Positions 46,073-61,217 of a stretch of 64,000 nt of DNA are shown one piece after another; within the stretch, counting starts at the first letter, position 1; the number at the start of each line of letters is the position of its first letter. The stretch is taken from positions 1-64,000 of the IMG/VR virus record IMGVR_UViG_3300044635_001202; one strand, written 5' to 3'. Position numbers and translations under genes: made by a program. The stretch comes from a virus. The notes below the pieces were generated by a model. The model worked only from the letters and a program-made list of their open reading frames with translations. It was not told the origin of the DNA and made no database searches.

Positions 46073-47026
46073 TTATAGGATGACTTCGACGGTCATTCTA
46101 AGCATACACCATATAAGATCAGAGACCGTATTTTTTTGCTGATCAATTAAATTAATGTCTTTAATATATAGTTTTTTCCAATGAAATGCTGAGTTATTAA
46201 TAATTTCGCTATAGTTTAATCCACTAGGATTAATTGATCCATTATATTTTAATGGATATGCATTATCAGAGATTAGTTTTTTAATATCGTACATCACGAT
46301 ATTATTGTCTTTTTGTAATCTTAAAATATCAACAATTTTATTATTATCATTTAGATTTTCTGAATAAACATGCAATAAAACATCTTGATTCCTATAAGAT
46401 TTTAGAGAACCAAGTTCGTATGGAATGTCGAAAGTATTTGGGGTTGGTTCTATTACAATACAAGGCATCTGTAGTCTATGTTCACCTAAAATATTACTAA
46501 GATTTGTTTTAGTAGTATCTGTTGGTTTATATGTAAGTTGTTGCAATAATTTCCATTCACTATCTACAGACTTGATAACTTGGCACCATCTGTAACTATA
46601 TGCCATATGAATTTTAGTAGCACTAGATAAAGGTTTATCAAAAATTACAGATCCGTTAGGATAATCCAAAGTATATGTAATTGCGCCAGAACCACTTGGA
46701 GCAGGATAGAGCGTGTTATTTACATAGATTCCGCTAATAGCATTAGGAGTAGAATTATTAAAAGAAACGCCCGACTCCCAGACCCAATCTCTTTTTGGTG
46801 TTTGCCAGATAGTATTAGTATCTTGTCCTACAGCATTGATTGGTTTCAATCTATCAAATGTAATATTATTATAAAGACCGGAGGTTTGCACATTAACATT
46901 GACAAATCCTCCAATATTTAACATATTATAATTAATATAAGATTTTAAATTATCTTCTATACTAGAAGTGTAAAAATTTTGATTTAGGCTGGTAACACCA
47001 TAAAAAGTATTATTACTAATATTCAT
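46073..47026 (-). CDS. Tail completion/terminator-region structural protein (317 aa)
   Basis: It overlaps the previous gene by 4 bp (ATGA). The sequence is β-rich with 'LKPINAVGQDTNTIWQTP', 'GIYVNNTLYPAPSG' and 'TYTLDYPNGSVIFDKPLS', a form that recurs in neck-region proteins of large phages. The C-terminal half has 'PCIVIEPTPNTFDIPYELG'. No metal-binding or enzyme motif is visible. Position between the connector and tube genes suggests a tail terminator or neck role. The exact function is unassigned. Confidence 0.5.
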   Translation of the reverse strand: MNISNNTFYGVTSLNQNFYTSSIEDNLKSYINYNMLNIGGFVNVNVQTSGLYNNITFDRLKPINAVGQDTNTIWQTPKRDWVWESGVSFNNSTPNAISGIYVNNTLYPAPSGSGAITYTLDYPNGSVIFDKPLSSATKIHMAYSYRWCQVIKSVDSEWKLLQQLTYKPTDTTKTNLSNILGEHRLQMPCIVIEPTPNTFDIPYELGSLKSYRNQDVLLHVYSENLNDNNKIVDILRLQKDNNIVMYDIKKLISDNAYPLKYNGSINPSGLNYSEIINNSAFHWKKLYIKDINLIDQQKNTVSDLIWCMLRMTVEVIL

Positions 47027-47679
47027 AATTGTTTCTCTATTTCCGTTTGTATGATACTAGTAATTTGTTGTTCTGTTATTTTACCAATACCTCTAGAAAG
47101 CCAGTTATTTGTAATAGACCCGGCAAATTCTCTTGGAACAAACCAGTCTGTATCTGATCTTATCATAAATCCCATACCCGAACGAGATTTGTTAGAATTA
47201 AGTTGACTAACATCATATTGTTTAACGATTCTTTTATTTCCTTCAAGCAATAACCATTTAGCCCAAGGTAAATAATATCCTTTATTATCATAAACCAATG
47301 CAGGTTCTGAGGATACTAAATTTTGTAATTCGTCTCTATCTAAAAAAGAACATTGAAAACCACCAGATACTGATAATTTATTAACTTGAATTGGTTTTGT
47401 TTCAACTTTAAGAGTATTTAATACTAAGTCTATAAATTTATCTATAGTATCTATATTTTCTATTCCAAATTCTAGTCTTAATTTGCCATTTTTTAAAGAC
47501 AAATACTCAGGCTCGTTAGTGACTCTTTGTTGAATTAAATTTCTAATATTAGCACGAATATTATTAATACTTTTATTTATAGCTACATCTAATATACTTT
47601 TAATATTATTTAGTATAGCTTCATAAATTTGATTATTACTTTCTAATAAATCTGCTGTGATTCTCATGGCTGAGTCCAA
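47023..47679 (-). CDS. Neck / head-tail connector protein (218 aa)
   Basis: The N-terminal 70 residues are helical ('ILDVAINKSINNIRANIRN'). The C-terminal half has the conserved-looking segments 'YYLPWAKWLLLEGNKRI', 'RSGMGFMIRSDTDWFVP' and 'REFAGSITNNWLSRGI', known to me from phage neck proteins with an HK97-gp10-like role. It overlaps the upstream zinc protein by 16 bp and ends in an ATGA with the next gene. Assigned by motif memory and synteny. Confidence 0.55.
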   Translation of the reverse strand: MDSAMRITADLLESNNQIYEAILNNIKSILDVAINKSINNIRANIRNLIQQRVTNEPEYLSLKNGKLRLEFGIENIDTIDKFIDLVLNTLKVETKPIQVNKLSVSGGFQCSFLDRDELQNLVSSEPALVYDNKGYYLPWAKWLLLEGNKRIVKQYDVSQLNSNKSRSGMGFMIRSDTDWFVPREFAGSITNNWLSRGIGKITEQQITSIIQTEIEKQL

Positions 47680-48179
47680 TTAGTTAATATATATTTTTTA
47701 TCTCCTAACCCAATTGGTGTTGGAAAACCTGCTTTTGAGTATGTTGCAGATACGAATGACTCTGTTTCTACTACCACCATGTTTTTACAAGATAATATAT
47801 TTGGTAATAAAGAAATATCACAAATAGTTTGTGCTGCAATATTTGGAATATTAACATGATTTGGTCCCCAGTTCAACCAATACTTACTATCTAAAATTAA
47901 AGCTAGATTAACTACTATATCAGATGTTGTTTGTGTTTTACCAAATCCTAAACAAGCTGGGCATACTGATCCATCAGCAAAACTAACAGGGCCTGTTCCA
48001 TTATATTTATTAAAAGATTTTTGATTTATAGGATCATAAATACAATTTGGACATAACTTATTATTTGTACCATCAAATATTAATTTACATGATGTGCTAA
48101 GACCCTCTTTGCTAATCAAATGATCTATCATGTCATTGTATATTTGTTTAAACTGTTTAGTAATAATATTATGAAACAT
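47664..48179 (-). CDS. Head-completion/neck protein with zinc ribbon (171 aa)
   Basis: The centre carries two CxxC pairs, 'LCPNCIYDP' and 'VCPACLGFGKTQ', a DnaJ-like C4 zinc site. 'KSFNKYNGTGPVSF' between them is a recurrent phage neck signature. The C-terminal part has 'LLPNILSCKNMVVVETESFV'. Such proteins join the head connector to the tail. It overlaps the next gene by 16 bp. The metal site looks complete. Confidence 0.6.
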   Translation of the reverse strand: MFHNIITKQFKQIYNDMIDHLISKEGLSTSCKLIFDGTNNKLCPNCIYDPINQKSFNKYNGTGPVSFADGSVCPACLGFGKTQTTSDIVVNLALILDSKYWLNWGPNHVNIPNIAAQTICDISLLPNILSCKNMVVVETESFVSATYSKAGFPTPIGLGDKKYILTNWTQP

Positions 48180-48182
48180 ATA

Positions 48183-48467
48183 TTAAAATTCTGTTAATGG
48201 TATTCTTTTCCAGTATGATGATGTCAAGCATATGTATATATAATCATTGTCCCATCTCAACTCTCCTGGTGTGCCTATTTCCGATGACGAATTAGGAGCT
48301 GCTGTTGGTAATATAATACTCAGACCTAAAGCATCTATAGAATTAACAACTTTAACATTTTCATCAGTAGATACTATAGTATTGGATATGCGAACAGTAT
48401 CCTGATCAGATTGAACAATAGCTACAATTTTTGTATCAGATGATACATTGATGATAGGATCTGGCAT
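48183..48467 (-). CDS. Small structural protein with 'GELRWDNDYIYIC' C-terminus (94 aa)
   Basis: Residues 1-55 are β-rich and Ser/Asp/Val-rich. The C-terminus 'IGTPGELRWDNDYIYIC' followed by 'YWKRIPL' is a motif often placed at the ends of phage fibre or minor structural proteins, where it forms a small folded tip. It has no cysteine cluster. The gaps to both neighbours are 3-5 bp, so it belongs to the neck operon. The function is unknown. Confidence 0.55.
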   Translation of the reverse strand: MPDPIINVSSDTKIVAIVQSDQDTVRISNTIVSTDENVKVVNSIDALGLSIILPTAAPNSSSEIGTPGELRWDNDYIYICLTSSYWKRIPLTEF

Positions 48468-48472
48468 AAACT

Positions 48473-48910
48473 CTACTCACACGAGGCGCATTCGTCTGGA
48501 TCGAATGATTTTGGAATAAAAACTTCTGGAATAATAATATTTGGATTAAGAATAGTAATAGTTCCTCTTAATAATTGAACAATCTGATCTCCAGCTCCTG
48601 GATATAATTCATTTGGAGCTTTAAGATCTAGATCATATAGAGCAGTAGAGAATGTGTATTCTGAGGTCGTTGATGACGGTAACTTAAATACTATTCTTCC
48701 AGTAGATGCTTGAACAACAAGATAATAAATAGCATCTTGATTATCTGACATATAAGTAATAACTGACGTATTTGGTCCATCAAGTGGTTGAACACTGATA
48801 CGAGCTTGCCAATTTGTTAAATTGATAGGGGTATTGTCTGAATTTTTATACTCAAATGTTTTTGTTAAACTACTACCTTTAGAGATGTCAAAATTATATT
48901 CAGATGCCAT
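48473..48910 (-). CDS. β-sandwich structural protein (BppU-N-like), paralogue of the gene at 57599
   Basis: 145 residues with 'FDISKGSSLTKTFEYKNSD', 'TPINLTNWQARISVQ' and 'FSTALYDLDLKAPNELY'. The same order occurs in the 135-aa protein encoded at 57599-58006 ('GTPINLTNWCARLTW', 'FNTAKYDLELRSPDDLY'), so the two are copies of one domain. The fold pattern resembles N-terminal domains that anchor fibres to baseplates or heads. The last residues contain 'DECASCE'. It lies between the connector gene and the 94-aa gene. Confidence 0.6.
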   Translation of the reverse strand: MASEYNFDISKGSSLTKTFEYKNSDNTPINLTNWQARISVQPLDGPNTSVITYMSDNQDAIYYLVVQASTGRIVFKLPSSTTSEYTFSTALYDLDLKAPNELYPGAGDQIVQLLRGTITILNPNIIIPEVFIPKSFDPDECASCE

Positions 48911-48927
48911 AATGATTGATATCCCTT

Positions 48928-49443
48928 TTAAGAGTAAAAATATCTAGATCTATCACTAGAGTCTTGTAAATATCTTGGATCAAATTTATTACCAACGAAT
49001 GGACTAAGAATAACAGCCACGGCTGCAGCATCTTTAACATCCCAATGAGATGTAAGTTCCTCGTACAAAGCGCATGGCCCCTTATCTAAGATTGTCTTCC
49101 ATCCGTTTAGACTACCAGCTACCGATAATTGAGCTGGACCTAAAGCTGCTCTCACTCCTTCTGTTGCGGCTTTGGTTCTGAAGGTGCTTTGGTCAACAAT
49201 ACATGCTGCTTTTAGAGATAATAATGCGATAAAAATTTCATCCTTATCTTCTGTTGGGTCGGGACTTATAGTTCCTGCACTTATATTTACGTCATATTGA
49301 TGTTCCAATACAACATCGAATTGAACATATTTAGCTGCTACAGTAATAGACTGTAATAGTCTTTCATCCGAGTACATAGGAGGATCTTCTAAATCATTAA
49401 TTAAAGTTCTAACAATAATAGGAATTTCAGTATTCCAACTCAT
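48928..49443 (-). CDS. Head-tail connector protein (171 aa)
   Basis: The helical pattern matches gp6-type or neck adaptor proteins: 'IPIIVRTLINDLEDPPMYSD' opens, then 'LLQSITVAAKYVQFDVVLE', 'TISPDPTEDKDEIFIALLSL', 'KAACIVDQSTFRTKAA' and 'LSVAGSLNGWKTILDKG'. It is the first gene of a transcription block preceded by the AGGTGTAT element about 39-47 bp upstream and AAAGGG as ribosome binding site. It would form the ring below the portal. Confidence 0.7.
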   Translation of the reverse strand: MSWNTEIPIIVRTLINDLEDPPMYSDERLLQSITVAAKYVQFDVVLEHQYDVNISAGTISPDPTEDKDEIFIALLSLKAACIVDQSTFRTKAATEGVRAALGPAQLSVAGSLNGWKTILDKGPCALYEELTSHWDVKDAAAVAVILSPFVGNKFDPRYLQDSSDRSRYFYS

Positions 49444-49482
49444 ATTTTGACCCTTTTATATAGAGAGTGTGCCTAGTCTTTA

Positions 49483-49490
49483 ATACACCT
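49483..49490 (-). promoter_or_regulatory. Candidate late promoter element AGGTGTAT (site C)
   Basis: On the - strand, TAAGGTGTATTAAAG lies about 39 bp before the connector start (49443) in an 80-bp intergenic gap. The octamer is identical to those at 54429-54436 and 58070-58077. Conserved position before the first gene of a block suggests promoter function. Confidence 0.5.
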
Positions 49491-49523
49491 TATAGTGAAA
49501 GGGATAGATTTTAAATTAAATGG

Positions 49524-49838
49524 CTAACTTAGAAGTTCCCATAATCCAGTATTCTCATTTAAAGTATGATCATCTCCAGGACAGGGTGGAACAAAAGCTC
49601 CTTCTGGAGCATTAATATCTTCTCTAAAAACATAACCTATCCCAGCATAATTTTTTCGGTATGGAACTCCACCTCCACTATGAACTCCACCAACTGTATT
49701 ATATGAAGTTCGTTTACAAGTTTTTCCTCTAAATTCTCCATAATGTTTTTCCCAATTAATACCATCTTCGTTTTCATTCTTACCAACTATAACTTCAGTA
49801 ACAATATTGTTTTCATCTAAAAATGCATAATGAGCCAT
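49524..49838 (-). CDS. Conserved phage structural protein, 'MAHYAFLDENN' family (104 aa)
   Basis: It opens with 'AHYAFLDENNIVTEVIVG' and has 'CKRTSYNTVGGVHSGG', 'VPYRKNYAGIGYVFRED' and 'FVPPCPGDD'. This small family is common in phages that infect aquatic bacteria and accompanies fibre genes. A second, GC-rich copy is encoded at 52558-52845. The AT-rich composition here is that of the genome average. The function is unknown; probably a capsid or fibre accessory protein. Confidence 0.7.
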   Translation of the reverse strand: MAHYAFLDENNIVTEVIVGKNENEDGINWEKHYGEFRGKTCKRTSYNTVGGVHSGGGVPYRKNYAGIGYVFREDINAPEGAFVPPCPGDDHTLNENTGLWELLS

Positions 49839-49852
49839 AATTATTCTCCTAT

Positions 49853-50770
49853 TTAAACTGTAAATGTAACCGTTCCTGTACCGGCTGTAATTGTAACAAT
49901 TGTATCTGCTCCAAAAGAAGCTGTAGTGTATGATAGTCCCGCTGAAAGAGTTATGTTTAATATGGCATCAAATCGCAATATCACAACACCGCTACCACCC
50001 ACTCCTCCAACTGAGAAATTAGTACCATCAGTTGCTCCACCACCACCTCCCCCTCCGGTATTAGCCGCACCTGCCGATCCCGCAGACGCAACATCCTGCG
50101 ACCCGTTGCCTCCACCAGTGCTACCACCAGAACCAGCAGAAGATGTTCCAACGTAGCCTCCAGAGCCACCGCCGGGACCGTATAGAACAGCCGATCCAGT
50201 GATGTCGCTAGACCTACCAATACCGCCCGAACCGCTAACGGTTGAAGTGGCGTCACCCCCTTGTCCACCAGAACCACCGCCACCACCACCAGCCCTTCCG
50301 TTTGATTGGCCAAGGCCACCGGAAAATCCTTGCGTCGTGATGTAGGACGCATTGCGAGTGCCTCCGTTGCTGTTGCCGGTCAGGAACAAATATCCGGCAC
50401 CTGTAGCAAGCGAGAAGCCAACGCTAGATGTCGAACCCGTTCCACCGCCTGCGGCAGTGATACCATCAAAAAAACTATTATTTCCGGGGAATGCTCCAAC
50501 AGAGCCACCGGCAGCAATCGTCACGGAGTATGATGTGTTAAGTAGAACGCCAAGGGTCTGATCCACCACGCCGCCACCACCACCTCCGGGTCCAGGGCGT
50601 CCGCCACCTCCCTGTGCAGTAACACCAGCCGCTCCACCACCAACCACCAACACACGAAGTAAAAAATTATCAGCAAATAAATCCCACGAATATCCATTCC
50701 ATCGGTATACTCTATTATTTTGACGAGAATATTGATTTACTGTTGGATTATTTGGAAAATTAAATGGCAT
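49853..50770 (-). CDS. Glycine-rich fibre/receptor-binding protein (305 aa)
   Basis: The N-terminus 'FNFPNNPTVNQ' plus 'VYRWNGYSWDLF' is a small attachment domain. Residues about 35-265 consist of Gly-rich stretches ('GGGGRPGPGGGGGG', 'GGAGGGGGGSGG') separated by short strands, as in polyglycine sandwiches of phage adhesins such as T-even gp38-type proteins. The C-terminus 'FGADTIVTITAGTGTVTF' is shared with the next gene. Its middle part (about 49980-50680) is notably GC-richer than its neighbours. The role is host binding, inferred. Confidence 0.7.
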   Translation of the reverse strand: MPFNFPNNPTVNQYSRQNNRVYRWNGYSWDLFADNFLLRVLVVGGGAAGVTAQGGGGRPGPGGGGGGVVDQTLGVLLNTSYSVTIAAGGSVGAFPGNNSFFDGITAAGGGTGSTSSVGFSLATGAGYLFLTGNSNGGTRNASYITTQGFSGGLGQSNGRAGGGGGGSGGQGGDATSTVSGSGGIGRSSDITGSAVLYGPGGGSGGYVGTSSAGSGGSTGGGNGSQDVASAGSAGAANTGGGGGGGATDGTNFSVGGVGGSGVVILRFDAILNITLSAGLSYTTASFGADTIVTITAGTGTVTFTV

Positions 50771-50773
50771 AAA

Positions 50774-51649
50774 TTAACTCCATGATACTGTTCCGGTTCC
50801 TGCTGTAAAGGTAACTATTGTATCAGATCCTACTGTGGTTGTTGTAAATGTTAATCCTACTCCTATATTAATTTTCATTTGGGAAGAATTCCAACGAACA
50901 ATAACAACGCCAGAACCACCAGTTGCTGGATTTGCATTTGTTCCACCTCCACCCCCACCTCCTCCTCCAGTATTGGCTGTCCCAGCTACGGCTGCAACGG
51001 ATGCTGCTGCATTTCCATTCCCTCCACCACCAATACCACCAGTGCCAGCAATAGCATTAGGATTAATTCCGTTAGAGTAACAACCACCACCAGCTCCTCC
51101 GCCATAGTATGATCCAGTAATTGTTGCTAACCGACCAGCACCACCATTACCAGATGCAGTAGATACAGCGTCACCACCTTGCGCCCCGGCTCCTCCTCCT
51201 CCTCCTGCGGCGGTAGCTGCCGCAAGACCAGTACCACCAGAAAATCCTTGCGTAGAGCAAAGAGATATTAGTCTCGTTATCGATGTGCTAGTGCCTCCAC
51301 TAGATGCTCCATATGCTATAGGCGTATTTTGACCAACGCCAGCACCTCCTCCTATTGCGACGATACTGCTAAACCGAGAAATAGAACCTTGGGTATTCGC
51401 TGCTCCCCCAGCTCCAATGGTTATCGTATATTCTGTTTGCAGTGAAATTCCAAGAAGCTGTTCAAGTACACCTCCGCCTCCACCACCACCAGCAGGAGTA
51501 TGTCCTGAGCGAATACCACCAGCTCCACCGCCTCCAACAACTAATAATCTTATTGTTCCAACAATAGACGAAGAACCAGATATTCCATATGGTCCGTATG
51601 GACTAGAAGATGCTAAAGATGATCCAAAACCATAAATACCATTATTCAT
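50774..51649 (-). CDS. Glycine-rich fibre/receptor-binding protein, paralogue (291 aa)
   Basis: Same plan as the previous gene: 'IRLLVVGGGGAGG', Gly-rich loops, 'LQTEYTITIGAGG', and 'SGVVIVRWNSSQ' before a C-terminus 'VGSDTIVTFTAGTGTVSW'. Codon use is closer to the genome average than in its paralogues. The N-terminus 'NNGIYGFGSSLASSSP' differs from the others, so it may attach to a different partner. It overlaps the following 127-aa gene by 4 bp. Confidence 0.7.
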   Translation of the reverse strand: MNNGIYGFGSSLASSSPYGPYGISGSSSIVGTIRLLVVGGGGAGGIRSGHTPAGGGGGGGVLEQLLGISLQTEYTITIGAGGAANTQGSISRFSSIVAIGGGAGVGQNTPIAYGASSGGTSTSITRLISLCSTQGFSGGTGLAAATAAGGGGGAGAQGGDAVSTASGNGGAGRLATITGSYYGGGAGGGCYSNGINPNAIAGTGGIGGGGNGNAAASVAAVAGTANTGGGGGGGGGTNANPATGGSGVVIVRWNSSQMKINIGVGLTFTTTTVGSDTIVTFTAGTGTVSWS

Positions 51650-52029
51650 AGATCAGCACCTAAAGCAGTAACGTGGGTGGCTTGACTAACGCTAGTAGTT
51701 ACTCTTAAAGTCCAAGAGGCGCTTGGTAATATAAGATTGTTATACTGGGTACTCACTCTACTTTGCTGAACAGTACTTGATCCAGTGGCGGCAGCTATAG
51801 TATATTCGTCAAAAAGATAATAAGTAGATCCATCATGTAAAAATAAACGAACTATAGCAGCAGAACTGGTAGCAGCATTTTTTACTACAACTTCTGCTAT
51901 TCGTGTTCCTGTAGATGCTCCAGTAATTAAAGTTCCAAAATTTGTTGGGGAAGTATAAGAACTTTCAGCAGTTGATATGCTGACATTTCCTATTCTAGGT
52001 GTTGCGGCAAATGAGGGACTAATAGCCAT
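51646..52029 (-). CDS. Conserved small β structural protein (127 aa)
   Basis: All-β sequence: 'IGNVSISTAESSYTSPTNF', 'GTRIAEVVVKNAATSSAAIV', 'STYYLFDEYTIAAATGS', ending 'SWTLRVTTSVSQATHVTA'. This family occurs widely in phages beside fibre genes. The jelly-roll-like pattern suggests a head or fibre decoration protein. No cysteines. Start on ATGA-type overlap with the glycine-rich gene. Specific function not recognised. Confidence 0.6.
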   Translation of the reverse strand: MAISPSFAATPRIGNVSISTAESSYTSPTNFGTLITGASTGTRIAEVVVKNAATSSAAIVRLFLHDGSTYYLFDEYTIAAATGSSTVQQSRVSTQYNNLILPSASWTLRVTTSVSQATHVTALGADL

Positions 52030-52040
52030 AATTTATTCTC

Positions 52041-52511
52041 CTATTTAAAGTTGTTCCATAGATAAAGATTAGCGGCATTTTGAGCATTATTAACGCCTGC
52101 GGTTGGTGGTCCTATTTCGGCATAATATGATCCTGTCCATTGATATAGTCTACTGGTATCAGATGCTAAATAATAAGAGTTGGTTGAACCAGTAGCTGGA
52201 AAGCTAGCTGTTGTAGCATAACTTATTATAACCGTACTATCAACTGTATAATTGCCAGAACTAGAGCTAATGCTAATTCCAGAACCAGCAGTTATATTGG
52301 TCACTGGTAATAGTCCACTAACTGAAGAGTTAAAATCTGTAATATTTGAAGATGAGTGAGTATGCCCACTAACACTAACATTAACACTATTAACTTGTAG
52401 TGAATTTATAAAATTACCACTAGTAACAGACAATAACCCACTAACAGAGGTATTAACTCCGCTAATGCTTATGTTTCGTGCTAGTAGTGAATTATTATAT
52501 GCTTTTGTCAT
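52041..52511 (-). CDS. Fibre-segment protein (156 aa)
   Basis: It has 'VSVSGHTHSSSNITDF' and 'SVSGLLPVTNITAGSGIS', repeat units shared with the 594-aa fibre encoded at 55532-57316, and 'YYLASDTSRLYQWTGSYYAE', a common tip-type segment. Probably a short fibre or accessory fibre part. Composition is AT-rich. The upstream side abuts the GC-rich island. Confidence 0.6.
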   Translation of the reverse strand: MTKAYNNSLLARNISISGVNTSVSGLLSVTSGNFINSLQVNSVNVSVSGHTHSSSNITDFNSSVSGLLPVTNITAGSGISISSSSGNYTVDSTVIISYATTASFPATGSTNSYYLASDTSRLYQWTGSYYAEIGPPTAGVNNAQNAANLYLWNNFK

Positions 52512-52557
52512 ATGTTATTATTTCTTAAGTTGTAATATCGTATGGTTTTGTGATATG

Positions 52558-52845
52558 TTATCTGTTTGCAAATGTGGTAATAGTTGGCGTGAATGTTGCC
52601 GTCGGGAATGGGTGCGGCGGCACGAATACGTCTGCCTGCGGATCGTAAGAAAACCCAATGCCAGCGAATTGTCTGCGAATGCTGCCGCTGTAGCTTGTCT
52701 GTATCCATCTTCCGCCAAGCAAAGACTGACAGAACGAGATGCCCTTGGCCTCGCTTTCGACGCCGTTGTCGAGCAGTTCCGCGTTGTTAACAACGATCAC
52801 CTGTGTGACGATGTTGTTGTCGTCGAGTTGTGCAAAATGTGCCAT
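52558..52845 (-). CDS. GC-rich copy of the 'MAHFAQLDDNN' family protein (95 aa)
   Basis: It opens 'AHFAQLDDNNIVTQVIVV' and has 'WIQTSYSGSIRRQFAGIGF' and 'DVFVPPHPFP', the same order as the 104-aa protein encoded at 49524. Its base composition is strongly GC-rich with C/G-ending codons, unlike the homologue. It overlaps the glycine-rich FN3 protein gene by 1 bp. Recent acquisition from another phage is likely. Confidence 0.7.
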   Translation of the reverse strand: MAHFAQLDDNNIVTQVIVVNNAELLDNGVESEAKGISFCQSLLGGRWIQTSYSGSIRRQFAGIGFSYDPQADVFVPPHPFPTATFTPTITTFANR

Positions 52846-54380
52846 TAGAATGTGATACTCCCGGTACCAGTGAATGTGTAGATGATGCTTCCCTCGCTGT
52901 TCGTAATCACAGGGCTACCAGTTGTCGCCGTTGCAGCGACTTGCGATTTGATAATCACAACGCCGCCTCCCCCAGCAGTACCTCCATCACCGCCCGCACC
53001 CTGCCCAGAGTTTGCCGTGCCAGCAGAGCCAACAGAGTTGCTGCCATTGACGGGCGTGACCTGATCCGCCCCCACCGAGATACCAGCGCCACCGCCGGAA
53101 AAATACCTCGTGCCTGAGTAGAGTACGCCGACGCTGGCTGCTGCCGCAAGCGTACTGTAAGAGCCAACACCGTCACCTCCAGCGCCAGCGGAGCCGCCGG
53201 ATGCGTTTCCGCCAGCACTAGCAGCACCACCACCACCGCCGGATGCTCCAGAACCATAAGGCCCAGCGCCGTTGCCTCCGTTGTAACCTTGACCGTTTGT
53301 GCCGCTGCCGCCAAGCGATCTGCTGTCTGTTGTGAAACCGGTTCCGCCGCCGCCGCTGCCTCCGTTTTTGCCTGAGCTATTGCCACCAAACGAACCACCA
53401 CCACCGCCACCAACAGCAACAGCTAACAGGCTAGCGAATGAGGAGTTTGAGCCGTTCGTTCCGGCAGTATTTGAGCCAACGCCCGCGCCGCCGCCGCCCA
53501 CCGTCACGATGTATTGTACGCCTGTTGCGTAGGCCACCGCAGACGAATAAACTACGCCGCCACCGCCGCCACCGCCGCCTACAGAAGTGGCACCGCCGCC
53601 ACCACCAGCGACAACGAGAACCTCAAGCATACTCCCCGGCGTCACTGCACTACTAGCCGTCGAATATGTTCCAGTACCCACGCCATTGACCCCAGCAACA
53701 CGAAACACATACGATGCTCCATTACTCAGTCCGGTAACAGCCACACTCGTTGAGGTAGAAGCTCCGTCAGAGAATGTTGTCCACGTTGAACCAGAATTTG
53801 ATGAATATTGTACTATATAATCTGTAATCGGCGTCTGACTTAAAACTGCTGGAGCTGTCCAGGATACTGTGGCCTGAGCGTTCCCCTGACTAGCCGTCAC
53901 TCCTGTCGGTGCCGGAGGAAGAAATAAATCCCATCTAGAATCATAACTAGAACCCCCACTACCCCCAGAAGAAACTCCAGAAGCCATAGTTAAATATTCT
54001 AAAACTGTTCCTGATGGAACACTATTATTAAGAGTAACATTAGATCCATCTGTTGCAGAAAAGTCTAGGTCTGATACTAGCTTAACTCCGTCTTGGAACA
54101 AATCTAAATACCCGACAGGATAGCCACCTGACACGGCAAAACTGGTCAATGTTCCTGTTGTGCTTATTATTCCTCTAACTCCAACAGACGAAGATGATGA
54201 ACCACCAACACTAGTTGATCCTATTCCACTAAGAGCTACCCAATTTGAAACTCCGTCTCCTATCTTAAGAATACTATTTGTTAAATCGTAGCCGGGCTCA
54301 CCACTAGCTAATACTGGATTGACCGAAGTCCATGCTGAAGATGTTCCTTTGCGAAATGTTATTAAATCATTAACAGCCAT
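52845..54380 (-). CDS. Mosaic fibre protein: attachment domain, FN3, glycine-rich tip (511 aa)
   Basis: Residues 1-50 are the 'W..NPVLASGEPGY...LKIGDG..NW..L' attachment domain common in phage fibres. About 155-250 is a fibronectin type III domain ('PPAPTGVTASQGNAQATVSW', 'SYVFRVAGVNGVG'). From 250 on it is a glycine-rich adhesin-like tip with 'MLEVLVVAGGGGG'. The 5' third is AT-rich like the genome; from about 53.9 kb toward its end it is GC-rich. The change lies at the start of or within FN3, a typical recombination border. It is preceded by the AGGTGTAT element. Confidence 0.75.
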   Translation of the reverse strand: MAVNDLITFRKGTSSAWTSVNPVLASGEPGYDLTNSILKIGDGVSNWVALSGIGSTSVGGSSSSSVGVRGIISTTGTLTSFAVSGGYPVGYLDLFQDGVKLVSDLDFSATDGSNVTLNNSVPSGTVLEYLTMASGVSSGGSGGSSYDSRWDLFLPPAPTGVTASQGNAQATVSWTAPAVLSQTPITDYIVQYSSNSGSTWTTFSDGASTSTSVAVTGLSNGASYVFRVAGVNGVGTGTYSTASSAVTPGSMLEVLVVAGGGGGATSVGGGGGGGGVVYSSAVAYATGVQYIVTVGGGGAGVGSNTAGTNGSNSSFASLLAVAVGGGGGGSFGGNSSGKNGGSGGGGTGFTTDSRSLGGSGTNGQGYNGGNGAGPYGSGASGGGGGAASAGGNASGGSAGAGGDGVGSYSTLAAAASVGVLYSGTRYFSGGGAGISVGADQVTPVNGSNSVGSAGTANSGQGAGGDGGTAGGGGVVIIKSQVAATATTGSPVITNSEGSIIYTFTGTGSITF

Positions 54381-54428
54381 TTTTACTTATATCCTGGATG
54401 TTCCGTAGAGCGATTATAATAATAATAT

Positions 54429-54436
54429 ATACACCT
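54429..54436 (-). promoter_or_regulatory. Candidate late promoter element AGGTGTAT (site B)
   Basis: On the - strand TTGAGGTGTATATATTAT lies about 48 bp before the start of the FN3/glycine-rich fibre gene, in a 95-bp gap. It is the same octamer as sites A and C and also has a TATAAT sequence shortly downstream. Confidence 0.5.
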
Positions 54437-54475
54437 CAAGGCAAGTTTAACAAAATATCAAACTGATTAATAATA

Positions 54476-55504
54476 TTATGGAATAAAATTATCATCAATT
54501 ATAGAATTTCCAGAAACATAACCATCATCATATGATACATTATTAGCTGTAAAATTAGAAATAATAGAAGATGCCGTTCCCGCACTCATTCCCTCAATAG
54601 TAGCTCCATTATTAACAAGATTAGCTAAGTGATGATCAATAGTTCCATGAGTTTCGAAAATTGTCAAACTTCCTTCGATCCCTTCTTCAACATCTCCAAG
54701 CACACTTTGATCCCATACTGATACTGATTCATTTGTTGATTCGTCTGTTAAATCATCTAAAATATCAGATTCTTCTATTTGTGCGACGTTTATTGTTTCT
54801 AGATCTTCATCTGATAATATTATATCTTGAACACGAAACATATCATTAGAGTTTTCATCTATTGACAATCCACCTACGGATGTCTCAAAGCTAGCTCTTG
54901 TTAAGCCATAAGTTTGTCCTGCCTCTCCGTATCCGTCCCATGTTCTTCCATCTTTTCCAACCCAAAAACCACCTGAATCAGCTACTTTTCTTAAGATCAT
55001 TGTTAGTGCGCCGCCAAGTTTTGTAATATTATATATTGTATTCCATTTCATCTCAAAGTTTAAATATGATAATGCTCCAGTACCAACTTTTATTATAGAA
55101 ATAGTGATTGGTCCAATAGTGGTATATGCAGTATTGTTGAAGGTTCTTGTAACATTATTATGAACGATTCTAAAACTTTCTATTGCTTTTGCCGTTTTCC
55201 AATTTTTAACAGTGTAGTATACCTTGAGCTTCATTAAGCGTGTTTCAACATCTAGCAAAAGTAATTCTGTGCCGCCAGACCCTACTTTATTATCTCCCCA
55301 TTTTGCTAAAAACTTTCCAGACGAGTAGTTATTTGGATTAAGAGTTTGGGCCTGTCTAATATACAGGTGTGGGTCACCCCACCCTCCCACATTCATAGCA
55401 GCTAATTTTTTAATATTGTCTTGTTGTCTAACTACGAGTCTATTTGTAGCACGACTAATGAATAATTTACCATTACTGTTACCGAAGCCAAAAAAAGCTC
55501 TCAT
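54476..55504 (-). CDS. Structural protein with a 'GWGDPH' (VWD-like) motif (342 aa)
   Basis: The N-terminus is short and basic. Near residue 40 stands 'NVGGWGDPHLYIRQ', in which GDPH is the hallmark opening of von Willebrand D-type domains. The rest of such a domain (Cys pairs) is missing, so this is only a hint. The middle is β-rich ('LMKLKVYYTVKNWKTAK') and has 'SGGFWVGKDGRTWDGYGEAG'. The C-terminal 120 residues are acidic and Ser/Asn-rich. It stands in the fibre block between two fibre genes. Function unknown. Confidence 0.5.
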   Translation of the reverse strand: MRAFFGFGNSNGKLFISRATNRLVVRQQDNIKKLAAMNVGGWGDPHLYIRQAQTLNPNNYSSGKFLAKWGDNKVGSGGTELLLLDVETRLMKLKVYYTVKNWKTAKAIESFRIVHNNVTRTFNNTAYTTIGPITISIIKVGTGALSYLNFEMKWNTIYNITKLGGALTMILRKVADSGGFWVGKDGRTWDGYGEAGQTYGLTRASFETSVGGLSIDENSNDMFRVQDIILSDEDLETINVAQIEESDILDDLTDESTNESVSVWDQSVLGDVEEGIEGSLTIFETHGTIDHHLANLVNNGATIEGMSAGTASSIISNFTANNVSYDDGYVSGNSIIDDNFIP

Positions 55505-55531
55505 TGTGTTTTCCTTTTTTTTATGAAAATA

Positions 55532-57316
55532 TTATGGTGTGCCGCCATCAATGACGCAGTAATATAGTGTTGTTGGATTAGCTGCGCTAACTCCGCTAAT
55601 GCTTGTTAGTCCGGCGAGAGTAGACGTTGTTGTTCCAAGAGATACTGATGTAGAGCCTATTGTAACCGAACTATTAAGAAGCTTATTATTAGCTATACTT
55701 CCAGCCAACATGGTATTTGTTACTGTACCAGTATCTGATGTATAAACACCGCTAGTTACTGTACTGGCATTACCACTTAAATTAGCGGTAATAGTTCCCG
55801 CACTAAAATTGCCGCTAGCATCACGGGATACAATAGCCAAAGTAGTATTGCTGTCTGTTGCTGTTGTTGCACTATTGCTAACTTTGCCACTTGAACTAAT
55901 TGTAGCTAGTTTGCTATCAGCAATAGCTGCGGAGCTGGATATGTCTCCATTTACAATACTATTAGATAGACTTAACTTACTGTATGCAATAGCAGCGGCA
56001 CTATTAATGTCTGCATCAACAATGGTGTTGTTAGCAATCATGGTACTAGTAACAGTACCAGTATCTGTTGTATAAACGCCATTTGTAACAGTACTAGCAT
56101 TGCCGTTCAATGATCCAATAAAATTACCACTAGTATAAATATCTCCACCAGTAAATTCCCACCTATTAGCTGATGTATTCCAAACAACTGACTTTGTGTC
56201 AGTCCCTGTATAAACTTCCATACCTCCGGTATTCAAGCCACTAGTATTAACTCTGATAATGTTATCACCAATTTCTACAGTAGTACTGTTAACTGTAGTA
56301 GTTGTCCCTTGAACAATAAGATCTCCACCAACTGTAATGTTTCCGGTGGTTGCTAAATTATTAATACCAACAATACTACGGGTACTATTAAGTACTAAAG
56401 CTCTGCTTGCAGAAGCTGTACCAGCAACAACTCCGGACAGATATGTTAGTTCAGCTAGTGTTGCTCTTGTAGAAGCGTCTGTTATATTATTCCAGGTGTG
56501 AGTATGTCCAACAAAAGATACTCCAGTAGTATCGATAAACATAGCATCATTAATAGAATCATAAGTTAAAGCAATACCAGTTCTTCCAATTACCTGAGTG
56601 GTAGCAACACTTCCAAGATCGGTAACTAAAGAACTTGGGATTCCAGTTACGCTAATAGTTTGAACACCAGCATTATTAACTATGCCAATGCCAGATCCTT
56701 GAGATAAACTCTTAACATTTAATAAACCACTTACCGAGGAATTAAAATCTCCAATATAAGAACTAGTTAATCCAGTAACTGAGATGGTTTCTACCTTACT
56801 AGTATCATCATAACTTGCTCTAATACCACTTACCCCAGTTATGGTAGCTCCTATAACATCTTTAACTGTATTAGCATCTAATCCATTAGTAGATATTGTG
56901 AATGTTCCATTGTTTCCACTTACAGCAATATTAGTGCCAGCCACAATATTTTTTACTGGTAATAAGCCACTAACACTACTATTAAAATCAGTAATTGCAG
57001 AAGATGAATGAGTATGGCCGGGAAGGGAAACTCCAGTAACAGATATGGTTAAGGCATTTGTTGAATCACTGTAAGACTTTTCAATATTAGAACCAGCGAC
57101 CAATAGATCATTAACTCTATCGTCTACCAATTCATTTAATTCAGAAGGTAAAACAGCTGCGTAAGCCAAAGAATTCCAGGCTGTTGTACCGTCTCCTATC
57201 TTGAATTTTTTATTGTCTGTTTCATAGCCTACTTCTCCAGCACTTAAAATAGGATTGACTGCGACCCAGTCTGTTGCTATACTTCTACGAAACTGAATTT
57301 TAGTTTGAACTGGCAT
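55532..57316 (-). CDS. Tail/head fibre protein with repeated β units (594 aa)
   Basis: It begins with the attachment domain 'IQFRRSIATDWVAVNPILS...FKIGDGTTAWNSL'. It continues with repeated units such as 'DFNSSVSGLLPVKNI' and 'GIRASYDDTSKVETISVTG', and later 'INSAAAIAYSKLSLSN' / 'SSSAAIADSKLATIS', typical of marine and freshwater phage fibres. No enzyme motif is visible. The C-terminus 'TTLYYCVIDGGTP' is a small tip. SD GGAG precedes the start. Its repeats are shared with the 156-aa protein at 52041, so one may derive from the other. Confidence 0.75.
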   Translation of the reverse strand: MPVQTKIQFRRSIATDWVAVNPILSAGEVGYETDNKKFKIGDGTTAWNSLAYAAVLPSELNELVDDRVNDLLVAGSNIEKSYSDSTNALTISVTGVSLPGHTHSSSAITDFNSSVSGLLPVKNIVAGTNIAVSGNNGTFTISTNGLDANTVKDVIGATITGVSGIRASYDDTSKVETISVTGLTSSYIGDFNSSVSGLLNVKSLSQGSGIGIVNNAGVQTISVTGIPSSLVTDLGSVATTQVIGRTGIALTYDSINDAMFIDTTGVSFVGHTHTWNNITDASTRATLAELTYLSGVVAGTASASRALVLNSTRSIVGINNLATTGNITVGGDLIVQGTTTTVNSTTVEIGDNIIRVNTSGLNTGGMEVYTGTDTKSVVWNTSANRWEFTGGDIYTSGNFIGSLNGNASTVTNGVYTTDTGTVTSTMIANNTIVDADINSAAAIAYSKLSLSNSIVNGDISSSAAIADSKLATISSSGKVSNSATTATDSNTTLAIVSRDASGNFSAGTITANLSGNASTVTSGVYTSDTGTVTNTMLAGSIANNKLLNSSVTIGSTSVSLGTTTSTLAGLTSISGVSAANPTTLYYCVIDGGTP

Positions 57317-57338
57317 TATAAATCTCCATTAAAATATT

Positions 57339-57602
57339 TTAGGGTGTTCCACAGTCGAATTGGTATGAGTCTAAGTAATCGTCTAATCCACTAATTCTAT
57401 AAACAGATAAATTTCCAATAATTTTATTCATAGGGTAGGAATCTGGTAGATCACTAAGTAGAATCTTTTCAGTATTGATAACATCAACATTATACGTTTC
57501 GTATCTTTCTATTTCTAGATTATTAATATTTTCAATATAACTAGTTTCTATCTCAATAATGTTATTCTCTGTATCTACAATTTCAACAATAAAATCACTC
57601 AT
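57339..57602 (-). CDS. Small acidic protein of unknown function (87 aa)
   Basis: Mostly β and acidic ('FIVEIVDTENNIIEIET', 'YNVDVINTEKILLSDLPD'), ending 'DYLDSYQFDCGTP'. The end 'GTP' is like that of the adjacent fibre. It overlaps the previous gene by 4 bp, so it is part of the fibre operon, perhaps a linker or chaperone for a fibre. No known family recognised. Confidence 0.5.
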   Translation of the reverse strand: MSDFIVEIVDTENNIIEIETSYIENINNLEIERYETYNVDVINTEKILLSDLPDSYPMNKIIGNLSVYRISGLDDYLDSYQFDCGTP

Positions 57603-58006
57603 ATGTTACAGTCTAAGTTGGAAGTATTTTGACTAAATCTCTTAACAACAGTAACTGTACCAAATACAATCCTAGTAATATATTTACCTCCACCACCAGC
57701 ATATAAATCATCTGGAGATCGTAGTTCCAGATCATATTTAGCCGTGTTGAAGATAAATCCATTAGTAGTTGAGGCGGGAATTAGCAAAGTAAGTTTTCCA
57801 TTTAAATCATCTATTGTAAATTTATATACACTATAGTCAGTATTTTCAGAATGAAACGCTTGGGTGGCATTCAAGTTAGTTCTCCAAGTAAGTCTAGCAC
57901 ACCAGTTTGTTAAATTGATGGGGGTTCCATTCTGGTTTTTGTATATCCAGGATATTTTAAATGATGTTCCCTGTTCTATAGCAAAGTCATATTTGGCTGC
58001 TGCCAT
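57599..58006 (-). CDS. β-sandwich structural protein (BppU-N-like), paralogue of the gene at 48473
   Basis: 135 residues: 'YDFAIEQGTSFKISWIYKN', 'GTPINLTNWCARLTW' and 'FNTAKYDLELRSPDDLY' match the 145-aa protein encoded at 48473-48910 in order and spacing. It is the first gene of the fibre block, downstream of the capsid terminator and of promoter element A. As it opens a fibre operon it may anchor these fibres to the virion. Confidence 0.6.
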   Translation of the reverse strand: MAAAKYDFAIEQGTSFKISWIYKNQNGTPINLTNWCARLTWRTNLNATQAFHSENTDYSVYKFTIDDLNGKLTLLIPASTTNGFIFNTAKYDLELRSPDDLYAGGGGKYITRIVFGTVTVVKRFSQNTSNLDCNI

Positions 58007-58069
58007 TAGTTTATGCCCTTAAGGATAGGATATTCTAAGCTATTAAAATAGAGTAGGATATAAAGTATT

Positions 58070-58077
58070 ATACACCT
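58070..58077 (-). promoter_or_regulatory. Candidate late promoter element AGGTGTAT (site A)
   Basis: On the - strand CTTAGGTGTATAATAC lies about 63 bp before the 57599-58006 gene and just after the capsid-gene terminator, as expected for a promoter that restarts transcription. It also contains TATAAT in the same stretch. Confidence 0.55.
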
Positions 58078-58147
58078 AAGTCTTCGTTGTCTGTTTAGCT
58101 TGTCTACAAAAACAAATCTGTATATTCTCGATAGTGGTGAAATAAAA

Positions 58148-58171
58148 AGAGCCACCGGTTAAGGCAGCTCT
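58148..58171 (-). terminator. Intrinsic terminator after the major capsid gene
   Basis: A 9-bp stem (AGAGCTGCC / GGTGGCTCT, two G-U pairs) with a 6-nt loop, followed on the - strand by TTTTTATT. It lies about 37 bp after the capsid stop. A perfect 12-bp palindrome AGTCTTAAGACT stands between them (58188-58199) and may add to it or bind a protein. Confidence 0.85.
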
Positions 58172-58208
58172 TCTTATTTTTAATAATAGTCTTAAGACTG
58201 TTATAGTA

Positions 58209-59222
58209 TTATAGAGAACCTAGTATAACTCTTCTATTGTCTAGAACAGCAAAGCCTTGTTCAGCCCAACCATAAAAGCCAGCTCTCTTTTGACGATGTA
58301 GTGTGTCATCTTCAAAAATTTGAACTTCTTCACGGACTGGCATTATAAAGCTATCTCTCTTACGAAGATCTAGGCCAACAACCACTTCGTTATCACTACC
58401 TGGAAGTGTGCCATTAAGAACACTGGAGTAGAAGAGTTGATACTCTTGACCTTCTCCTAGTTCGTCTAGATCATGAAGATTGATACCGAATACTCTGTTG
58501 ATGGCTCCATCACCAGCAGTGTAGATTTCTCTACGTGTAACTTCGTCAACTTGGTCAATACCCCAATTACGAATATCTTCCATTGACTCTGGAGAAACAT
58601 AAAGATCTGTTAACATGCCTCTATTGTTACTAGCAGAGTTACCTCCGCCGTTACGACGCATAACAGTCTTCATAAGACTTACTAGTCTCTTGGTGAACTG
58701 GCCAGAAGCAGCATCGCTATCATAGACAACAATGTTGCGATCAACGCCAGCAGCAAGCAATGTATGCCAGCCATCATCGTTCATCTTCTTGACGAAAGAA
58801 CTTTCAAGAACTTCCATTGCACGACCAACTACGTCCCAGCGAGCATCACGAGCATACTTTAGAAGATAATCGATACTAGCACCGATATCAAAAGTAGGAA
58901 CCATGACGTAATCGCCTTCAACATGGCGTTCTGGAACATAGCCGTGGTTAGGAACAGTATAGGCAACAAAGTCCTTTTCTGTACCTGGGGCTAGAAAATC
59001 TAGTGGGAATTCTGGAGTGGCACTTTGAGCTAAACGAATTGGCTCGAAGATACCGTCTAGAATATCTCCACTTAACAAACCCTTACGGAGAGGAAGTTCT
59101 AAGGCCTTTGCAAACTCAGCATTGGCAGCTAAAGATACCTCTCTGTTTGGAGAGCCAGAACGGATCAAAAGATCTGTAAGTTCTGGTGTTGGTTGGAAAG
59201 CTTTGCTATTAACTGATGACAT
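58209..59222 (-). CDS. Major capsid protein (HK97 fold)
   Basis: 337 residues with the typical order of this capsid group: 'GDILDGIFEPIRLAQSAT', then 'PEFPLDFLAPGTEKDFVAYT', 'VPERHVEGDYVMVPTFDIG', 'NNRGMLTDLYVSPESMEDI', and 'HRQKRAGFYGWAEQGFAVLD'. The N-terminal 20-50 residues are helical and may act as a delta-domain. It follows decoration and protease/scaffold genes and is followed by a strong terminator. Its codon use is GC-richer than the genome average, in line with high expression. Confidence 0.9.
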   Translation of the reverse strand: MSSVNSKAFQPTPELTDLLIRSGSPNREVSLAANAEFAKALELPLRKGLLSGDILDGIFEPIRLAQSATPEFPLDFLAPGTEKDFVAYTVPNHGYVPERHVEGDYVMVPTFDIGASIDYLLKYARDARWDVVGRAMEVLESSFVKKMNDDGWHTLLAAGVDRNIVVYDSDAASGQFTKRLVSLMKTVMRRNGGGNSASNNRGMLTDLYVSPESMEDIRNWGIDQVDEVTRREIYTAGDGAINRVFGINLHDLDELGEGQEYQLFYSSVLNGTLPGSDNEVVVGLDLRKRDSFIMPVREEVQIFEDDTLHRQKRAGFYGWAEQGFAVLDNRRVILGSL

Positions 59223-59247
59223 ATTATATCTCCCTTATTGATAAAAA

Positions 59248-59703
59248 TCAAGTAATATTGACTGAGACTTTAGCATAACCATCTGCACTTAAGCTGCTCA
59301 AGAACTGACCAATCTTCACAGCATTGGTGCTGGATGTTCCAACGAGACCACTGGCGCCAACATAAGCATCAGTACCAGCTGTTGGTGAAATGCCGCTTAC
59401 AAGACGATTTGTTGTTACCTGCCCTTGACGTAGAACAGTAACCTTGCCACCAACCTGAACCTCATCTCGGTGCCAGTTGATATGCTGTCTGGTTAGGTCA
59501 TAGTTAACAACGTCGTTCAAGAGAATGCCAAGAGGCTTGGCTCCGCTGGCAGCAGCAGCATAAGCTACTACAGCATTAGCGTCGTCCATGGCTACGCCAG
59601 AACCGCTAGTAACAGCAGATACAACGCCGCCTCTCTCGGCAGTGGTGTTCATGAAAAATGAAATATCTGTTAGTAATTCGATACGATCTGGTTTAAGAGC
59701 CAT
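59248..59703 (-). CDS. Capsid decoration/stabilisation protein (151 aa)
   Basis: All-β small protein between scaffold and capsid genes: 'RIELLTDISFFMNTTAERGG', 'GSGVAMDDANAVVAYAAAASG', 'VQVGGKVTVLRQGQVTTN'. Position and size fit a gpD-like head decoration protein that binds the capsid after expansion. No cysteines. The gap to the capsid gene is 25 bp. Confidence 0.7.
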   Translation of the reverse strand: MALKPDRIELLTDISFFMNTTAERGGVVSAVTSGSGVAMDDANAVVAYAAAASGAKPLGILLNDVVNYDLTRQHINWHRDEVQVGGKVTVLRQGQVTTNRLVSGISPTAGTDAYVGASGLVGTSSTNAVKIGQFLSSLSADGYAKVSVNIT

Positions 59704-59706
59704 GAG

Positions 59707-60387
59707 TTATTCTCCCTTATTAAGATTTTTACCTAGTCTAGCACAAACAAATTCAACAAGTTCTGCACGAGTATTTGAAACAGTTGATTCTGCTTCTCCA
59801 CCAACGCCTAGCTCAACTGTCTCTGTTGTTTCTACTTCTTCTAAGGCATCAACAACATCTTCAGCTTTTGCTGGTTTCTTTTTTGGTGTTTCCATCATCA
59901 TTTCAGCCTTTTTAACTTTCATACCAGCAAAAAGACTAGTCATAGTTTCAAATGCAGTATCGTCGATATTTTCGAATTTTTCTAATGTTGAAGCAACGGA
60001 CTCTTCGTCGAGACCGGCTTCTACTAAAGCTGCTTTACGCTTCATCATTTTTTCTTTCTTCATCATTTCAGCTTCTTTATCCTTGTAAGCTGCAATGACT
60101 TCATTAGCTGCGTTGAGTTCTGCTTTAACAGTATCAAGTTCTGTTTGCTTGTCTGTAAGAGCTGTTTGTAGTTCTGCAACTGTGATCTCTACTTCGTTCT
60201 TTGTGGCAGCTAGAGCTTCGTCAAACTCAGCTTTCATCTTTTTCATCTCTTCTTCTTTCTTAACTAATTCAGCATCTTTATTTTTCATAGCTGCCTCTAG
60301 TGTTTCATTGGATAGTGGAGTGTCCGAAGCAAGTGCATGAGCTTCAGGCACATTAAGATCGGTATTTGTTTCTACAGCTGCACTCAT
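59707..60387 (-). CDS. Nested scaffolding protein from an internal start (226 aa, in frame)
   Basis: ATG at 60387 (codon 274 of the protease-scaffold gene) has GGAG 9 bp upstream. The octamer AGGTGTAT lies at 60426-60433, 38 bp before it, the same distance as site C. The product would be the coiled-coil scaffold alone. Nested, in-frame scaffold genes are known from lambda (C/Nu3). The internal start is seen in sequence; its use is an inference. Confidence 0.55.
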   Translation of the reverse strand: MSAAVETNTDLNVPEAHALASDTPLSNETLEAAMKNKDAELVKKEEEMKKMKAEFDEALAATKNEVEITVAELQTALTDKQTELDTVKAELNAANEVIAAYKDKEAEMMKKEKMMKRKAALVEAGLDEESVASTLEKFENIDDTAFETMTSLFAGMKVKKAEMMMETPKKKPAKAEDVVDALEEVETTETVELGVGGEAESTVSNTRAELVEFVCARLGKNLNKGE

Positions 60388-61206
60388 AGTGATATTCTCC
60401 GCATTTAATTGGGGTTCGTTTACTAATACACCTGAATTCGATAAATCGTCATTTTTTTGTTCCAATAATTTATTTACTACATCTCTGGTAAAGATTATAC
60501 TATCTGGATTAGCTGGTTTGTCAACAAAACCTTTACCTGAAAAAGTAATATCTCTTAATACTCTGCCAATTTTGTAGTTAGAGTGTTCACCCTGACCTCC
60601 ATAAGCTCTTAAATATTTTGTTAGATAAGCAGTGTCTTCATTTCTTGCTAATATTTTATACTCTGCAGTTTCTTTATTAATTAGTCCATAATCGAAACCT
60701 TTGAAATAGCATTCCATGCTAACGTATTTTTTCCCAGATTCGATCTCATTAATCAAATTTTCTGCTCTAGCTTTAAGATCTGGATTACTGAAAGCTCTAT
60801 AAATTACAGATCCAGTTAAAATATGAAATTTATCTGGTAAGTCATTAATATCAATAATATTATTAATTGGAGATCCATCGTCATCGATAGGCCAATTAGA
60901 AGTAATATGTCCTATGATTAAATTTTCATTATGCTCTAAATTTGTTGGTTTGTCTTCCGGTGTATTACGAGCATTCCATACTTCTGTTTTATGAAAAATA
61001 TCGTCATTTTTATTCCATGCAGAACTTACTAAAATAGACTGAACATAGTACAAATCATTGTCATGTAATGATGCTATGGTTTTATTTTTAAGTTTATTGC
61101 TTTTAGAAACTTCACAAGGTTCCGCTAAGGAAGCATAAGAAACCGAAGCAGAAGCACATATTTTCTCAGCAATACCATCATGAATTTCTGCTGCAAAAAT
61201 TTGCAT
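59707..61206 (-). CDS. Prohead protease fused to scaffolding domain (499 aa)
   Basis: N-terminal half: U35-type serine protease pattern with His92 in 'NLEHNENLIIGHI', Ser163 in 'KYVSMECYFKGF', and the conserved later segment 'GRVLRDITFSGKGFVDKPA'. C-terminal half (about residue 274-499): Lys/Glu-rich coiled coil ('MKKMKAEFDEALAATKNEVE') that is a scaffold, ending in 'LVEFVCARLGKNLNKGE'. An internal ATG at codon 274 has its own ribosome binding site and a promoter-like octamer, so a separate scaffold protein may be made. It cleaves capsid and scaffold proteins during head maturation. Confidence 0.8.
   Translation of the reverse strand: MQIFAAEIHDGIAEKICASASVSYASLAEPCEVSKSNKLKNKTIASLHDNDLYYVQSILVSSAWNKNDDIFHKTEVWNARNTPEDKPTNLEHNENLIIGHITSNWPIDDDGSPINNIIDINDLPDKFHILTGSVIYRAFSNPDLKARAENLINEIESGKKYVSMECYFKGFDYGLINKETAEYKILARNEDTAYLTKYLRAYGGQGEHSNYKIGRVLRDITFSGKGFVDKPANPDSIIFTRDVVNKLLEQKNDDLSNSGVLVNEPQLNAENITMSAAVETNTDLNVPEAHALASDTPLSNETLEAAMKNKDAELVKKEEEMKKMKAEFDEALAATKNEVEITVAELQTALTDKQTELDTVKAELNAANEVIAAYKDKEAEMMKKEKMMKRKAALVEAGLDEESVASTLEKFENIDDTAFETMTSLFAGMKVKKAEMMMETPKKKPAKAEDVVDALEEVETTETVELGVGGEAESTVSNTRAELVEFVCARLGKNLNKGE
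60426..60433 (-). promoter_or_regulatory. Candidate internal promoter element AGGTGTAT (site D)
   Basis: On the - strand TTCAGGTGTATTAGTA lies inside the protease gene (codons for SGVLV), 38 bp before the nested scaffold ATG. Because it is coding DNA, a chance match cannot be excluded; the matching distance is what makes it notable. Confidence 0.35.
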
Positions 61207-61217
61207 AAATTACTTTC

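Follow-up and report, generated by a model that had tools for sequence, protein, structure and literature searches.

What is a strongly GC-rich stretch doing in the middle of an adhesin gene of an AT-rich phage? The question arises from the window, by which we mean the whole stretch of 64,000 nucleotides analysed here (positions 1 to 64,000 of IMG/VR record IMGVR_UViG_3300044635_001202, which comprises 73,135 bp). We propose that the adhesin is modular, with a native AT-rich anchor, and that a GC-rich phage supplied its tip and the neighbouring small gene in a single cassette, a reading to which we assign a probability of about 90%. The cassette was probably gained during co-infection of a shared host; one crossover would then have occurred at or near the conserved FN3 domain or its linker, and the second where the small gene ends on its 3' side. 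The following features of the window are relevant.

49524-49838, minus strand: AT-rich paralogue of the small gene, phrog_7759 (PHROGs E 4.6e-22)
49853-50770, minus strand: second glycine-rich tip gene, partly GC-shifted (GC3 0.33, z 7.5; log-likelihood ratio 27.5)
52041-52511, minus strand: native downstream flank, gene 'MTKAY...' (85.5% nucleotide identity in L165)
52535-52603, no strand: left junction interval (homology ends and codon scan)
52558-52845, minus strand: small gene, 95 aa, phrog_7759 (PHROGs E 5e-28)
52588-53645, minus strand: foreign GC-rich segment, adhesin tip and most of the small gene (codon likelihood; relatives in GC-rich phages only)
52845-54380, minus strand: adhesin, 511 aa, with Mtd_N-like anchor, linker, FN3 and glycine-rich tip (Pfam)
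52947-53636, minus strand: Gly_rich_2 domain, presumed receptor-binding tip (Pfam, aa 249-478)
53649-53912, minus strand: FN3 domain, boundary module (Pfam, aa 157-244; GC3 0.32)
53961-54380, minus strand: native AT-rich anchor, aa 1-140 (kept in sister phages; GC3 0.21)

The adhesin matched Mtd_N (3.6e-9), fn3 (1.8e-13) and Gly_rich_2 (PF21722; 2.4e-6, with 28.1 bits above the curated cut-off of 24.3). Judging from the Mtd_N-like domain, the N-terminal anchor would attach the adhesin to the tail, followed by the FN3 linker and an exchangeable glycine-rich tip that would contact the receptor. By analogy with the tips described for Pam3 and S16, the Gly_rich_2 tip presumably binds the receptor and sets specificity. 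The adhesin stop codon and the ATG of the small gene share one base.

Composition and borders of the island

Across approximately 52.6-53.7 kb the GC content rises from 0.32-0.38 to 0.50-0.65. A preliminary description of this DNA had noted a strongly GC-rich stretch in an AT-rich genome, and both the GC scan and the codon-usage likelihood confirmed that it is real. The small gene has a GC3 of 0.61, where its amino acids with native codon usage would give 0.19 (z 11). For the adhesin gene the values are 0.40 versus 0.18, the excess being concentrated in the glycine-rich tip, where GC3 by blocks is 0.33-0.70 versus an expected 0.16-0.19. In a likelihood scan that compared native with GC-rich-phage codon usage per codon, the best donor-type segment extended from 53645 to 52588 with 143 nats; the remaining genes reached at most 13.8 nats, save 49853-50770 with 27.5. 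The island had been said to cover a complete small gene and the FN3/glycine-rich tip of the next gene. In the codon scan it comprises the glycine-rich tip and nearly all of the small gene, down to approximately 52588.

Such a rise could in principle be an artefact of composition, if the codons of glycine and alanine (GGN, GCN), together with strong expression, raised the GC without any transfer. The tip is indeed rich in both residues, so that the GC expected from amino acids alone is up to 0.45-0.55, and the capsid-region genes at 58209-59703 show a modest increase in GC3 (0.30-0.37). However, the GC3 of the island lies far above expectation (z 11-13), the protein of the small gene is not rich in glycine, and the glycine-rich paralogue at 50774-51649 stays at the native GC3 of 0.18. 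Moreover, the capsid-region genes gain only C, whereas the island gains C and also four-fold G (0.16-0.27 versus 0.01-0.02 in the capsid-region genes). The tip has C in 70% of its NNY codons and the small gene in 79%, compared with 14% in FN3 and 17-20% in the background. Glycine codons alone cannot account for the GC of the island, and homology and trees place it with GC-rich phages; we therefore give almost no weight to a purely compositional origin. As to the two genes at 58209-59703, one of which matches a major head protein family, their GC3 suggests codon choice linked to expression and not a transfer, because they have more C-ending codons and almost no four-fold G.

The codon scan set the right border at approximately 53642-53759 and the left border at 52564-52603. 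On the left side the homology to AT-rich sister phages begins at 52527-52535, and on the right side the anchor homology stops at 53962. Between them, homology to GC-rich phages runs from 53706-53825, inside FN3, down to 52600-52615 at 76-81% nucleotide identity. The change back to AT-rich DNA had been placed at 53.75-53.9 kb, close to the start of FN3. A composition switch exists on this side, but it coincides with the end of FN3, and in the codon scan it lies approximately 0.1-0.25 kb inside the earlier estimate. FN3 itself is intermediate (GC3 0.32 versus 0.53 in the tip, p 0.0004), with NNY codons of the AT type. Since FN3 domains are present in both the AT-rich and the GC-rich phage pool, FN3 or its glycine-rich linker may have been the shared recombination boundary. 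Alternatively, in view of its intermediate codon pattern, FN3 may be an older import that arrived separately.

An abrupt change in composition may also be produced during assembly, when contigs of AT-rich and GC-rich origin are fused. Both phage types do co-occur in samples, as the GC-rich L003 and the AT-rich L164 were both obtained from metagenome 3300044971. Nevertheless, a second contig (IMGVR_UViG_3300034062_004184, 27,866 bp), whose sampling is possibly not independent of the window's record, is identical to window positions 46848-60380 and crosses both borders without a mismatch. The same contig was the sole match in IMG/VR to an exact 38-base pattern of the island. The adhesin reading frame is continuous through the right border, and the search for a possible joining partner yielded no GC-rich contig with a high-identity island. 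The chimera that the preliminary description had kept in mind is thus ruled against at contig level, and we regard it as extremely improbable. Besides, the contig L083 (metagenome 3300045999) is identical to window positions 54077-62190 and breaks off within the conserved anchor, which would be expected of a sample whose strains vary behind it.

GC-rich relatives, direction and age of the transfer

For the tip and the small gene, close relatives were found only on contigs of 59-64% GC. At first, the GC-rich loci were gathered for their resemblance to the small gene, a choice that favours the clade of that gene, but a separate search with the tip, independent of the small gene, agreed in that the close tip carriers were GC-rich. 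The island thus has the kin in higher-GC phages that had been suspected, and its relatives are not of one composition throughout, with AT-rich flanks on the one hand and GC-rich island kin on the other. The carriers include a 40-kb phage (G003) whose terminase, portal and major head proteins belong to families of the siphophage kind, the related G021 and G022 (46 and 60 kb), and G006 and G020 (25 and 62 kb). Since these three types share strongly only adhesin-type segments, the cassette moves among GC-rich phages too. Strong DNA sharing between the window and GC-rich contigs is confined to 52600-53885, and searches of the GC-rich records, themselves incomplete, did not recover the terminase and capsid proteins of the window. 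Weak DNA matches of 66-67% link the GC-rich phage L328 (5449-5694 and 6696-7000) to the tail cluster of the window (49593-49838 and 51764-52070) and hint at older exchanges.

A cultured donor is lacking, because isolate phages gave no DNA match, the adhesin matches listed in isolates covered only the first 50 anchor residues or FN3, and the small gene matched over at most 72 residues. In bacterial genomes, relatives of the small gene (47-60%) occurred in metagenome-assembled genomes of several phyla and are uninformative on the host.

In trees whose bootstraps had not settled, the window copy of the tip was nested within the GC-rich clade (support 99/92), and that of the small gene fell into a GC-rich clade that was partly unresolved (98/83), whereas the paralogue at 49524 grouped with AT-rich phages (100/100). 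The transfer could nonetheless have run in reverse, with GC-rich phages acquiring the cassette from an AT-rich phage, given that the cassette moves freely and AT-rich phages also possess glycine-rich tips and phrog_7759. The nesting of both window genes within GC-rich clades speaks against this direction, as do the GC-rich copies, which are at donor-type GC3 (0.67-0.70, compared with 0.53 in the window tip). Moreover, change on the window branch runs from GC to AT, with 36 S>W versus 12 W>S changes at four-fold sites (p 0.0007). We therefore consider the reverse direction very unlikely and favour import into the AT-rich phage.

The imported tip is drifting towards AT. The import is recent enough to have kept much of its composition and is not brand new. 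The preliminary description had spoken of a fresh mosaic junction in the middle of a gene. Homology confirms that the junction lies inside the gene, but "fresh" is too strong, because the nearest known relative is only 76-81% identical and the GC3 of the tip has already fallen to 0.53. The distance to this relative also bounds what can be said of the actual donor and the date.

The adhesin slot in AT-rich sister phages

The window belongs to an uncultured group of AT-rich phages with contigs of up to 229 kb, whose terminases are 71-85% identical at the amino acid level; long terminase matches to isolates are approximately 24% identical. Within the window, positions 25100-42493 form a single open reading frame of 5797 residues. 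The part of this phage record that lies beyond the window contains two genes for sugar-nucleotide enzymes (L197:12169-13149 and 15069-15986), which by eye look like GDP-mannose dehydratase and GDP-fucose synthase.

The anchor (53961-54380) is kept in the AT-rich sisters with 79-87% nucleotide and 82-96% amino acid identity, and behind it they carry unrelated modules. The domain names given here were assigned partly by eye, Pfam having confirmed LamG, FN3 and Gly_rich_2 in the counterpart in L009.

L165 and L170: LamG domain
L163: LamG, FN3 and other tip, with a different downstream gene
L166: FN3 and other tip
L169 and L174: double FN3 and glycine-rich tip
L172: FN3 and another tip

On the other side, a counterpart of the gene at 52041-52511 (MTKAY/MSLSY) follows the slot directly or one to two genes later in most sisters; a match over the full gene was found in L165 only (85.5%), the others being partial. 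The flanks are therefore homologous among sister phages while the contents are not, which is the pattern of exchange. The inserted modules mostly have a GC3 of 0.4-0.77, the anchors one of 0.1-0.4. Among genes with the full anchor, 8 of 9 had a stretch of 100 codons with GC3 above 0.45, versus 2 of 39 among those with only a distant anchor (p 1e-6), the former count, taken from dereplicated rows, being slightly generous since L233 and L234 are near-duplicates. The idea that all adhesin tips of this phage group are GC-rich was rejected on the latter count.

Three separate modules of a single GC-rich phage (L009/G006) are shared with three slot alleles, namely the glycine-rich tip and small gene with the window (78% nucleotide identity), LamG with L165 (84%), and an FN3-tip with its partner gene with L163 and L166 (86-88%). 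An exchange of receptor-binding genes, as the preliminary description had assumed, is borne out by the flanks shared with AT-rich sisters, the island shared with GC-rich phages and the agreement of the trees. The same adhesin slot has received several imports, of which the window island is one, and it seems to serve repeatedly as an entry site for new host-recognition parts.

Diversification by a built-in system instead of import, through a diversity-generating retroelement or invertible segments, was also considered, as the anchor matches Mtd_N, a domain originally described in a phage tropism protein that is diversified by a retroelement. However, RVT_1 had no match in the 73-kb record, in contrast to the positive controls, long inverted repeats form just one pair, which spans 5.4 kb and is weak (75%), and most of the direct repeats reflect repeated glycine codons. 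Furthermore, the alleles differ by entire unrelated domains and not by point variants, so that a built-in system is hardly plausible here and import remains the preferred reading.

Two further observations concern the slot. In L163 (7818-8381), L166 (7650-8192) and L214 (2897-3439) a protein of 180-187 aa stands behind the tip in place of phrog_7759. Its HxD...H pattern suggests a 2OG-Fe(II) oxygenase-like protein, although the L214 copy is without a Pfam match, and its gene also moves between AT-rich and GC-rich phages (86-88% nucleotide identity). L172 carries two copies of one GC-rich FN3 tip module (7339-7622 and 8577-8860) at a distance of 1.24 kb, which suggests tip duplication inside one AT-rich genome.

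The small partner gene and comparable exchange systems

The AT-rich homologue of the small gene that had been reported at 49524 is indeed present; both proteins belong to phrog_7759 and are 38% identical. It pairs with 49853-50770 as a second unit of tip and small gene. This second tip gene is probably an older shared import, since 49483-51031 is 93% identical at the nucleotide level in L165.

We know of no function for phrog_7759. Among 70 distinct genes examined, 60 had a long open reading frame ending beside their start, and in all 60 of these testable loci it was glycine-rich, which puts the small gene in a chaperone-like position. The protein of the window comprises 95 aa versus 117-120 aa in the GC-rich relatives, its C-terminal part being absent. 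Placement in the known TFA family by sequence was unsupported, as Caudo_TAP (PF02413) matched 0 of 58 phrog_7759 members even at E 10, and none was found in 18 phage records, while the E. coli control was positive. Structural models for the family (mean pLDDT 83 and 90) gave no significant fold match in the PDB. Among the non-significant ones were Pam3 gp25 (7ypx_a; TM 0.47 by query length, E 4.9) and the Mu fibre chaperone (5yvq_B; TM 0.30 by query length, E 6.8), to which a full-length family member matched with E 1.6 and 9.2, respectively, likewise non-significant; these weak fold matches serve as a lead at most. A role of phrog_7759 as chaperone or cap for glycine-rich tips would fit this position, and we put the chances at about even. 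A wider proposal is that the slot behind the conserved 140-residue anchor is a specialised site where a group of large AT-rich phages repeatedly loads tips from a pool common to several unrelated GC-rich phages, and that phrog_7759 is an unrecognised chaperone or cap family obliged to travel with glycine-rich tips. This proposal is tentative, and we lean against it.

That unrelated phages exchange receptor-binding domains, and also fibres together with their chaperones, is already established (PMC10684548, PMC10579305). The Alteromonas phages A5, V22 and P24 share modules of tail fibre and cognate chaperone (PMC10579305). As in our case, distantly related phages there have a fibre and a small downstream gene in common that move together. 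However, A5 and V22 use DUF4376 chaperones and the fibres of A5, V22 and P24 end in knob and head domains (PMC10579305), whereas here a Gly_rich_2 tip is combined with phrog_7759, the contrast in composition is strong and one slot is refilled repeatedly. Similarly, a survey detected recent sharing across families or lifestyles only in receptor-binding proteins (PMC10684548). Our finding agrees with it in that receptor-binding domains were recently shared by unrelated phages; unlike that survey of protein families, it resolves a single slot to donor pool, direction and junctions. With regard to the small gene, the Pam3 chaperone gp25 embraces the glycine-rich tip of the fibre gp24 (PMC9608196, PDB 7YPX). 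Like Pam3 gp24/gp25 and the S16 gp38 adhesin, the window combines a glycine-rich receptor-binding tip with a separate small candidate chaperone, but phrog_7759 proteins have 95-120 aa compared with 162 aa in gp25 and lack a significant sequence or fold match to it. The locus described here is clearly a new case, unusual in its composition contrast, the recurrent use of the slot and the strict pairing with phrog_7759.

Exchanges of receptor-binding genes are usually seen as unexplained mosaicism, and here the foreign composition dates and orients one of them. The slot shows that the moving unit is the tip together with its partner gene, which offers a testable partner for glycine-rich tips. The transfer would imply an encounter within the same cells between phages of approximately 36% and 60% GC. 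By this route, host contact between uncultured phages may become readable from sequence alone.
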